Of a stretch of 64,000 bases of DNA, positions 32,638-34,835 are shown piece after piece. The stretch spans positions 1,240,001 to 1,304,000 of the forward strand of contig NZ_CP015102.1 of the NCBI RefSeq assembly GCF_002214485.1. The letters are read 5' to 3'. The DNA is from Thermococcus pacificus. Its GTDB lineage: Archaea; Methanobacteriota_B; Thermococci; Thermococcales; Thermococcaceae. Position 1 is the stretch's first letter. Every line of letters starts with the position of its first letter. The notes under the pieces are model-generated. The model was not told where the DNA came from and did no database searches. It saw only the letters and a program-made list of their open reading frames with translations. The position numbers were made by a program, and so were the translations under genes.

Positions 32638-32806
32638 CGGAGCTATTTGGGCCTTTGGTGTTTTAACGGTTGTCCCTTAAAATCCTCAGGATTTTCCATG
32701 CTTTTTCGCAAAATGCCCGGGAAATGTTGTCCTTATGAAAGGGAAAGCCTTTTTACCCCTCGTTTCGAGAGAGGTCTGAAGGTTTAACGCTTACGGAGGG
32801 TTGAGA

Positions 32807-33535
32807 ATGGGAGTTGAAAAGGTTCCGAAGTACGACATCCCGACCAAGAAGGTTGACTACGTTTTTATCGAGCTCGACAAGATGAAGCCCCACGAGCAGC
32901 TCGTCCAGAAGGAGCTTGAGGCCTTCATCGAGAGCGTTACTGGAAGCGGCATCTTCTGGAAGCCGATGCTCCTCGCGAAGGTTCCAGGCGAGGACATGTA
33001 CCTCATCGTTGACGGCCACCACCGCTGGGCGGGTTTGCAGAAGCTCGGAGCGAAGAGGGCTCCGTCGGTCATACTCGACTACTTCAGCGACGACGTCAAA
33101 GTTTACACCTGGTATCCAGCTTTCAAGGGAGACCTCAACGAGGTCATTGAGAGGCTCAAGGCCGAGGGCCTCGAGGTCATCGAGGATCTGGAGGCAGAGG
33201 AGAAGGCCGAGAGGGGAGAGATAGCCTTCGCCCTCGTTGGTGAGAAGAGCTTCGCCATTCCTGGCGGCCTCGACGAGCAGAAGAAGGTAAGTAAAGTGCT
33301 CGATGAGATGAGCGTTGAAGGAAGGATAGAGCTCATCTACTACGGCCTCAAGGAGGACGCCAGGGAGGACATGGCCAAGGGCGAGATCGACTACGTCTTC
33401 ATCAGGAAGGCCCCGACCAAGGAGGAAGTCATGGAACTCGTCAAGCGCGGTGAAGTTTACTCACCGAAGACCACCAGGCACGTCCTTCCCTTCAACCCGG
33501 ACAAGATTGACGTCAAGCTCGAGGAGCTGTTCTGA
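32807..33535 (+). CDS. serK: ADP-dependent L-serine kinase
   Basis: The 242-residue protein has a ParB/sulfiredoxin-like fold and corresponds to SerK of Thermococcus kodakarensis, which phosphorylates free serine with ADP to give O-phosphoserine for cysteine synthesis. With the ATG at 32807 the catalytic Glu falls at position 30 in KPHEQ, as in the characterised enzyme, and DGHHRWAG near residue 69 is the ParB-type nucleotide motif. This agreement and GGAGGG upstream settle the start. Proteins of this kind are often misannotated as ParB nucleases. The gene is monocistronic and divergent from the DUF763 gene. Confidence 0.93.
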   Translation: MGVEKVPKYDIPTKKVDYVFIELDKMKPHEQLVQKELEAFIESVTGSGIFWKPMLLAKVPGEDMYLIVDGHHRWAGLQKLGAKRAPSVILDYFSDDVKVYTWYPAFKGDLNEVIERLKAEGLEVIEDLEAEEKAERGEIAFALVGEKSFAIPGGLDEQKKVSKVLDEMSVEGRIELIYYGLKEDAREDMAKGEIDYVFIRKAPTKEEVMELVKRGEVYSPKTTRHVLPFNPDKIDVKLEELF

Positions 33536-33566
33536 AGGTTTTTAACCTCCCCACCTTTCCTTCTTC

Positions 33567-33625
33567 GCCCGATGACGATGGATCAACCGGCTGAACCGTG
33601 ATGACCAGTCCAGGAAACCGAGGGC
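33567..33625 (+). ncRNA. C/D box guide sRNA targeting the 16S rRNA 5' end
   Basis: All parts of an archaeal C/D sRNA are present in 59 bases: terminal stem GCCC/GGGC (33567-33570 with 33622-33625), C box ATGACGA (33572), 12-nt guide, D-prime box CTGA (33591), 3-nt spacer, C-prime box GTGATGA (33598), 13-nt guide, D box CCGA (33618). The U in C and the U in D that normally face each other in the kink-turn are both C here, a compensated change. The D-prime guide TGGATCAACCGG is complementary over 11 bases to CCGGTTGATCC at the start of archaeal 16S rRNA. By the box-plus-five rule it would methylate the first U of GGUU. The second guide target is not identified. Confidence 0.85.
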
Positions 33626-33686
33626 CTGCACCTACATAACCACTTTCAAAGGATATAGACTTCCACTCCCCTAAATGGAACGGTAA

Positions 33687-34121
33687 GAAAATGTTGAGGT
33701 CTCTCGTTCCCTCCTCACGGGAACTCCCGGAGATAAAGCCGAGTCATTAAACTTCAGGATAGTCCGCTCCCTCAAGGAGATATCCACGGAGAATGCGGTC
33801 GTTATAGGCAGGGGTGGCGAAAGGGTTCCTCCTGGATGGGAGTCAATCACGGTTAGCGCCGTGAGGGGATTCTTTGGACCGAAGGAGTTACGAAGAATCC
33901 TTGAGGGTATCGTAGCAAGCCTCAAAAACGACCCCGACAAGGCAATCGTCATAGCCTGCCCCGAATACCTTGCCCTCCACAACGGCTTTAGGGCTCTCGT
34001 AAGGTTCCTCAACGACGTAAGGGACTACGCGATTCTGTTTAGCGGGCGAGTCTACCTCGTCACCGACGAGCTCGCTTGGGATCCCAGAGAGTTTACCCTA
34101 CTGAAGGGACTCGAGGAGTAG
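33687..34121 (+). pseudogene. DUF835-domain gene with damaged 5' end
   Basis: The C-terminal part (GTG at 33861 onward) reads like a DUF835 domain: a strand with AIVIACPEYLALHNGFRALVRFL, then a strand and a final helix. The same frame stays open upstream to 33687 with plausible DUF835 sequence (NFRIVRSLKEIS, then AVVIGRGGERVPPGWE), but contains no start codon there. An ATG at 33675 is followed by a TAA at 33684, and an ATG at 33691 with a weak ribosome site is out of frame. A small indel or nonsense change has therefore probably inactivated the gene, or translation begins at the poorly placed GTG and gives 86 residues. Confidence 0.6.
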
Positions 34122-34160: not shown

Positions 34161-34835
34161 ATGCTTAGGGGGTTAATCTTCGACGTTGACGAGACCCTGG
34201 TCTACTACGAGGGCTACAACCACCGCGACTGGTATGAGGAATGGGTAAAGCCCGAGCTGGAGAAGCATGGCATTGCCCTTGACTACGAAACATACAGGAG
34301 AACCGTAACCGGTGAACTCCCAAGGAGCTACGTGGAGCGGTTTGGCATCGACCACGTTGAGTTCTGGAAGCTGGTCGACCGGGTCAACCTCTCCTACCGG
34401 CAGGAGATGGCGAGGCTCGGCAGGATAAAGCCATTCCCGGATGTTTCCGCACTGAAAGAGCTGAGGAACCTTGGATTGAAGCTTGCCGCTGTCAGTAACG
34501 CCTCCCAGGACTGCACGGAGTTCGTCCTTGATCTCTTTAATCTGAGAGGCTACTTCGACGTCGTCTACGGCAAGGACTACTCCAACCTCGACGGCGTCAA
34601 GCCCAACCCCTACCTTGTCGAGAAGGCCCTGAAGGCCCTCAACCTGAAGCCTGAGGAGGCCTTAATGGTCGGAGACAGTGCCCACGACGTTTTAGCCGGC
34701 AAGGGGGCCGGTTTGAGAACCGTCAACGTAACGCGCTTTGGAAAGGTTGAGGGGGCTGACTACTACGTGAAAGACCTCTGGGAGCTTGTGGAACTCGTGA
34801 AGGAACTCTTCTCCAAACGTTCCCCAGAGGTCTAA
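34161..34835 (+). CDS. HAD-superfamily phosphatase
   Basis: The 224-residue protein is a HAD hydrolase with a helical cap (C1 type). Motif I is FDVDETLV with nucleophile Asp8 and Asp10; motif II is the Ser/Asn of AAVSNASQD near 113; motif III Lys lies in DGVKPNPY near 148; motif IV is VGDSAHD near 172. Such enzymes dephosphorylate small metabolites; the similarity to phosphoglycolate phosphatases is general. ACCTTTAAATATTC about 30 bases upstream is its promoter, and the transcript probably has a short leader. Confidence 0.92.
   Translation: MLRGLIFDVDETLVYYEGYNHRDWYEEWVKPELEKHGIALDYETYRRTVTGELPRSYVERFGIDHVEFWKLVDRVNLSYRQEMARLGRIKPFPDVSALKELRNLGLKLAAVSNASQDCTEFVLDLFNLRGYFDVVYGKDYSNLDGVKPNPYLVEKALKALNLKPEEALMVGDSAHDVLAGKGAGLRTVNVTRFGKVEGADYYVKDLWELVELVKELFSKRSPEV

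Follow-up and report, generated by a model that had tools for sequence, protein, structure and literature searches.

Which RNA is encoded in the short interval behind the serK gene of Thermococcus pacificus, what does it pair with, and what is to be made of two box letters that depart from the archaeal consensus? The window, by which is meant the whole stretch of 64,000 nucleotides that was analyzed, belongs to a genome of 1.79 Mb. A sequence-only reading of it had described a C/D box sRNA at positions 33567-33625, with a guide for the start of 16S rRNA and a paired change in boxes C and D.

Anatomy and genomic setting of the sRNA

The element is a complete C/D box sRNA on the plus strand, and its boxes and stem can be read directly from its sequence, GCCC-G-ATGACGA-TGGATCAACCGG-CTGA-ACC-GTGATGA-CCAGTCCAGGAAA-CCGA-GGGC. 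The 5' half of the terminal stem (GCCC, 33567-33570) pairs with the 3' half (GGGC, 33622-33625) at all four positions. Between them lie box C (ATGACGA, 33572-33578), the D' guide (33579-33590), box D' (CTGA, 33591-33594), the spacer ACC, which represents the K-loop (33595-33597), box C' (GTGATGA, 33598-33604), the D guide (33605-33617) and box D (CCGA, 33618-33621). The 12-nt guide, 3-nt spacer, 13-nt guide and 4-bp stem that had been described are thus all borne out. The box order C, D', C', D, the guides of about 12 nt and the short D'-C' spacer are those of archaeal C/D sRNAs, with two letters off the consensus, C at 33576 in box C and C at 33619 in box D. The folding energy of the whole sRNA is no better than that of shuffled sequences (z 0.56), which is no surprise in a guide whose folding involves protein. 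The listed reading frames contain no ORF of 60 or more amino acids overlapping the sRNA.

The serK (L-serine kinase) gene lies upstream (32801-33535, plus strand; Pfam SerK_C 1.4e-48). It is followed by a TATA-like box, TTTTTAA (33539-33545, plus strand), about 30 nt upstream of box C. Of the 67 orthologs described below, 62 have such a box within the 15-50 nt that precede box C, most commonly at a distance of 30-34 nt; it is probably the promoter from which the sRNA would be transcribed independently behind serK. A gene downstream codes for a HAD-family hydrolase (34161-34835, plus strand; Pfam Hydrolase 1.4e-27). A DUF835-type reading frame lies between the sRNA and this gene. The DUF835 match (33660-34121) begins at position 57 of the 136 positions of the model, and no in-frame start in the ORF list gives a full-length protein, so that the gene looks truncated or broken. 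Directly 3' of the sRNA, at 33628-33650, is the motif GCACCTACATAACCACTTTCAAA, which occurs once in the 64-kb window; slightly varied forms of it follow the sRNA in many orthologs that are not adjacent to the HAD gene.

Orthologs and relation to known RNAs

When 94 Thermococcaceae genomes were searched at the DNA level, 82 of them had a match at E <=1. The alignment used throughout comprises 67 loci, the best one per genome (30 returned by the search and 37 fetched), with matches above an E value of about 0.03 left out. Three more genomes (G021, G046 and G063), outside this alignment, were found by the exact guide pattern, and the element is therefore present in at least 70 of the 94 genomes. 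Outside the family, the same exact pattern was absent from the 21 genomes of the class that were searched. When the guide pattern was scanned across a wider collection, most of the matches listed were bacterial and had no C/D layout, and the records with the same RNA were mostly from Thermococcus. There were 27 archaeal loci among the matches listed; nine loci outside Thermococcaceae with clear boxes were tabulated, and L122, L153 and L158 were left out. Evolutionary changes were counted on a single-gene (DUF763) tree of 58 genomes, from which G010, G016, G018, G039, G049, G050, G053, G055 and G067 are absent because the marker was missing, partial or not used.

The terminal stem has three or four of its four pairs in 66 of the 67 orthologs, and a single pair in L038. 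Six orthologs (L060-L065) have a D'-C' spacer lengthened by a hairpin-forming insert of 19-21 nt, so that a stem-closed kink-turn would replace the K-loop; on the tree these six do not group as a single clade.

Against the Rfam model of sR14 (RF01145), a Pyrococcus C/D box sRNA, the window locus scores 36.8 bits (E 1.5e-8 in a 301-base search) and misses the gathering cut-off of 38 by 1.2 bits. The cut-off is passed by 12 of 17 orthologous loci scanned, including all nine Pyrococcus-like ones. In G024, a genome assigned to T. kodakarensis by inference, the ortholog coincides exactly with 316130-316191, the circular junction of sR15/Tko-sR16. For that RNA in the wild type, Table 1 of PMC9014305 gives 1,629,229 small-RNA reads along with 698 circular ones, the circular reads falling to 8 in an RNA-ligase knock-out. 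Given the sR14 scores of the related loci and this match of coordinates, the sRNA is an ortholog of known, sequenced RNAs. Orthology to sR14 is argued from the guide and boxes, and for the Thermococcus loci also from the serK flank, not from the Rfam score: the D' guide is held in common, and a serK-type C-terminus with its stop codon lies upstream in most Thermococcus loci. The Pyrococcus-like loci have no serK-type end upstream, and orthology there is argued from guide and boxes; an automatic flank match at L067 (LTSLF) is unlike serK.

The window RNA resembles sR14 in length, boxes and D' guide core. It differs in its D guide, which is of class I (see below) in the window RNA and of class III in most Pyrococcus-like genomes, and in the two variant box C/D letters, which are C.C here and U.U in eight of the nine Pyrococcus-like genomes. 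Tko-sR16/sR15 shares the pairing D' guide GGATCAACCGG, but has a class II D guide and carries C.C in C'/D', its C/D pair being U.U. In Pyrococcus-like genomes (L033-L048 and L068) the ortholog has another sRNA, Rfam sR22, as a near neighbour on the opposite strand.

That the window locus is a chance resemblance or a dead copy can practically be dismissed. Its Rfam score is just under the cut-off; nevertheless, boxes and guide are frozen in 67 orthologs, and C-D'-C' patterns number 31 genome-wide versus 2 for a reversed-pattern control.

The D' guide and the 5' end of 16S rRNA

Positions 33580-33590 of the D' guide form 11 contiguous Watson-Crick pairs with nucleotides 14-4 of the 16S rRNA of the same genome. 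The fifth base from box D' is opposite U8, the first U of GGUU, in agreement with the target that had been predicted from the sequence. The duplex has an energy of -20.6 kcal/mol, whereas 200 shuffles against the same segment average -7.9 kcal/mol and go no lower than -14.7, and the observed score against 16S and 23S rRNA was reached by 1 of 300 shuffled guides. At least nine Watson-Crick pairs spanning the fifth base are expected of a guide according to PMC4644070, and the D' guide has them.

In the alignment, columns -11 to -8 (GGAT) and -6 to -3 (AACC) are invariant in 67 of 67 orthologs, while column -2 is G in 65 and column -1 is G in 66. Column -7 is C in 58 and U in 9, both of which can pair with G10 of 16S rRNA. 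Column -12, just beyond the duplex, varies freely (T 22, A 21, C 14, G 10). Near-invariant pairing columns, a common change that keeps a G.U pair and a free next base are what selection for 16S pairing looks like, and support a guide predicted to methylate U8. On these sequence grounds the RNA is very probably a box C/D methylation guide sRNA, its D' guide directed to 16S nucleotides 4-14 and its target being U8. The terminal stem, the C/D kink-turn and the C'/D' K-loop would form, and L7Ae, Nop5 and fibrillarin would bind as expected from the family. The D' guide would pair with nucleotides 4-14, placing the ribose of U8, which by the fifth-base rule is most likely 2'-O-methylated. The literature yielded no map of methylation at the 16S 5' end; a P. 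furiosus RiboMeth-seq paper leaves its methylation data to a later publication (PMC7758197).

Among the matches listed, Sulfolobales and Thermoproteota bins also contain C/D-like RNAs that share this D' guide. Eight loci of Thermoproteota and other uncultured archaea among the matches listed (L132, L138, L145, L152, L162, L179, L205 and L219) combine the D' guide with a different D guide, [ACG]TTTGCCGAGTC; in the 23S rRNA of the window genome, this D guide matches over 10 bp at position 1808.

Comparison with U3 and 16S folding

We take archaeal 16S 4-14 to line up with yeast 18S 4-14. The target of the D' guide would then be a site also used by the eukaryotic U3 snoRNA, likewise a box C/D RNA that pairs with the 5' end of the small-subunit rRNA at the central pseudoknot (PMC4340053 and PMC9196750). 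In yeast, box A'/A of U3 pairs with 18S nucleotides 6-22, and binding of box A excludes the central pseudoknot (PMC4340053). This opens the alternative that the main job of the sRNA is folding: the D' guide would keep 16S 4-14, a strand that helix 1 shares with the central pseudoknot, open until release, with methylation as a by-product or a release timer. The near-frozen guide across Thermococcaceae and the presence of same-guide C/D-like RNAs in Sulfolobales and Thermoproteota bins (among the matches listed) speak for such a job, and two reviews know of no U3 or U3-like sRNA in archaea (PMC3608112, PMC8339473). However, 11 bp is nothing unusual for a guide, since many of the same genome's 25 C/D sRNAs have a 10-13-bp rRNA match that spans the methylation position, and a D' guide placed so perfectly should methylate. 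Folding as the main job is thus unlikely, and methylation guidance remains the preferred reading.

A role in late 16S folding alongside it is plausible. That chaperone ideas for archaeal sRNAs have already been published (PMC4644070) speaks against anything special about such a role. Unlike U3, the window sRNA has no visible U3-type architecture, and the Rfam U3 model gave no match at the locus, either at the gathering cut-off or at E 10. In the literature searched, most subscription journals lying outside its scope, no report was recognised that joins the pseudoknot to an sRNA or U3 to archaea in these respects.

An exchangeable D guide

The D guides of the 67 orthologs fall into class I (GTCCAGGA core, 32 loci), class II (ATCGG[CT]CTTG or a near form, 24 loci), class III (GTCCGCATCAC, 8 loci) and three others. 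The class changed at least 10 times on the tree, and the window genome and its nearest tree relative differ in it. Nevertheless, the ten bases CAGTCCAGGA of class I, to which the window RNA belongs, are identical in 32 of 32 loci except for one A to G change, and conservation to this degree argues that the D guide has a real target.

The search for that second target, which had been suggested from the sequence, came out empty: TTTCCTGGACTGG has no target in 16S, 23S or pre-rRNA, 5S, SRP or RNase P RNA, nor in the 44 tRNAs, a set comprising all those found by Rfam and whose loci show no tRNA-Trp in the ARAGORN list. No target appeared in the whole rRNA operon with its spacers; the best rRNA score, 7.3, was reached by 169 of 300 shuffles, and nowhere in the rRNA does the D guide reach nine Watson-Crick pairs spanning the fifth base. 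A pattern search of the genome gave one exact complement of the 13-mer, at G000:C1:994769 on the minus strand. The gene there, read by eye, is on the other strand; the site was rejected because the mRNA of that gene would contain the guide itself in place of its complement.

The class II D guide (ATCGG[CT]CTTG) has its best match at 16S 449-460, with 11 pairs including G.U, and weaker ones at 16S 846, at 23S 469 and in RNase P RNA. A role in bridging helix 1 and helix 27 of 16S rRNA was considered and dropped, as another sRNA of the genome, L286, already has 11 pairs at 16S 846. L286 (G000:C1:409191, Rfam sR60) has 11-bp matches both there and at 16S 1352, and has a C/D sRNA neighbour, Rfam sR1, some 90 nt upstream. 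The D guide of the window RNA probably serves a second, lineage-specific purpose.

The end of the D guide and the HAD gene

In 22 of the 32 class I orthologs the terminal stem is followed at once by ATG (GGC|ATG), the start codon of the HAD gene. At these 22 loci the D guide closes with the Shine-Dalgarno sequence AGGAGG, 7 nt ahead of the ATG. The motif is present in all 22 adjacent class I loci but in just 3 of the 10 that are not adjacent (Fisher p = 3.6e-5); on the tree, four of five independent pairs agree (p = 0.125). One class II locus, L031, also has the stem followed by ATG, but its HAD start is 549 nt away. It appears from these sequences that in the 22 relatives the guide end also serves as the ribosome binding site of the HAD gene.

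Such an arrangement could indicate that the element acts in cis, as a kink-turn leader through which L7Ae would control translation of the HAD gene, instead of or besides guiding in trans. Apart from the 22 class I sRNAs that end at the HAD start codon with AGGAGG kept in all of them, PMC4247193 places eleven T. kodakarensis snoRNAs in 5'-UTRs. However, in the window the HAD start is about 540 nt (539) from box D and the D guide ends in AAA. Furthermore, the D' guide matches 16S rRNA in all lineages, including those without HAD adjacency, an ortholog occurs as a circular 62-mer, and the agreement on the tree is limited to the four of five pairs given above. A cis-acting leader is therefore very improbable, and a guide acting in trans is the reading retained.

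The C.C pair of the kink-turn

The C in box C and the C in box D face each other at position 3b.3n of the kink-turn, the pair that follows the G.A pairs. The 67 orthologs have at this position of C/D 31 C.C, 23 U.U, 6 A.U, 5 C.U, 1 A.G, 1 C.A and no U.C. At the corresponding position of C'/D' there are 61 U.U, 3 C.C, 1 U.C (L043), 1 C.U and 1 A.U. The tree of 58 genomes requires at least 8 changes at 3b and at least 14 at 3n. Five independent pairs of genomes differ at 3b, and in 4.9 of these on average 3n goes the same way (p = 0.0625, the number of pairs being too small for significance).

The coupling extends to other sRNAs of the window genome. A census gave 35 pattern matches, 24 of them with a usable box D, which together with L314 make 25 C/D sRNAs, the choice of box D being less certain for L281, L282 and L287. 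Both letters of C/D differ from U in eight of these, 3b alone in one and 3n alone in none, with U.U in 16 (Fisher p = 8e-6); the corresponding numbers for C'/D' are 7, 4, 0 and 14 (p = 7e-4). C.C itself is carried by five of the 25. A stricter subset with a stem of at least three pairs (n = 16) has 8 U.U, 4 C.C and one each of A.C, G.C, C.G and C.U. In the nine tabulated non-Thermococcaceae loci of archaea that share the D' guide, among the matches listed, the pair is G.C in 6, A.U in 2 and U.U in 1. The Rfam consensus of sR-tMet (RF02163) has the same ATGACGA/CCGA box pair, and the window genome's copies of sR34 (RF01273), sR28 (RF01136) and snoR9 (RF00065) carry C.C, in each case with other guides and targets.

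The paired replacement of U by C that had been noticed in boxes C and D thus holds up as a coupled change. Because the coupling is seen in the orthologs, in the 25 sRNAs of one genome and in loci outside the family, the change is real and general, not unique to the window sRNA. In the literature searched, which left out most subscription journals, no report of this coupling was recognised.

Position 3b.3n of a kink-turn sets whether it folds in metal ions alone. The window kink-turn has C:G at -1, C.C at 3 and G:C at 4. Archaeal C/D kink-turns mostly have U:U together with G:C at 4b:4n, which impairs ion-only folding, and C:G at -1b:-1n favours it, according to Ashraf et al. (PMC5689011). From these three pairs, a somewhat more self-folding kink-turn is a fair but unproven prediction. 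The kink-turn would have passed from U.U to C.C through coupled substitutions that leave the motif functional.

It could also be that the C.C pair arose by neutral drift and has no consequence for folding, a possibility to which we give considerable weight, if rather less than an even chance. Several pair types alternate among close relatives, and a kink-turn with G-C at 3b.3n that did not fold in ions was folded on addition of L7Ae (PMC4382518). However, drift alone would not couple the two letters, and a U at 3b with a changed 3n is absent from C/D in the 67 orthologs and the 25 sRNAs. Because of this absence, the box C letter seems to move first in box C/D. A coupled change thus remains the preferred description of the C.C pair.

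Implications

The observations can be joined in a reading in which sR14-type sRNAs would be functional archaeal counterparts of U3. The near-fixed D' guide would time the closure of the pseudoknot, and the methyl group of U8 would mark its completion. The D guide would be an exchangeable module, doubling as a Shine-Dalgarno sequence where the RNA abuts the HAD start, with excision leaving a leaderless mRNA, and Thermococcus kink-turns with C.C or C.U would depend less on L7Ae for folding than those with U.U. Taken as a whole, this combination is speculative and quite unlikely.

The sRNA belongs to a known kind, and its coupled box change is general and not unique to it. The RNA itself is an expected guide; the interest lies mostly in the 3b.3n coupling, the exchangeable second guide, the guide end that appears to act as a ribosome binding site as well, and the occupancy of the U3 site. 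The coupled change across natural guide RNAs links in vitro folding rules to evolution. At one locus a second guide has been exchanged many times, and in many species its bases appear to double as a ribosome binding site for the gene that follows. Finally, an archaeal C/D RNA is directed to an rRNA site used by eukaryotic U3, in organisms said to lack a U3-like RNA, and this makes the guarding of the central pseudoknot by such RNAs a testable question.
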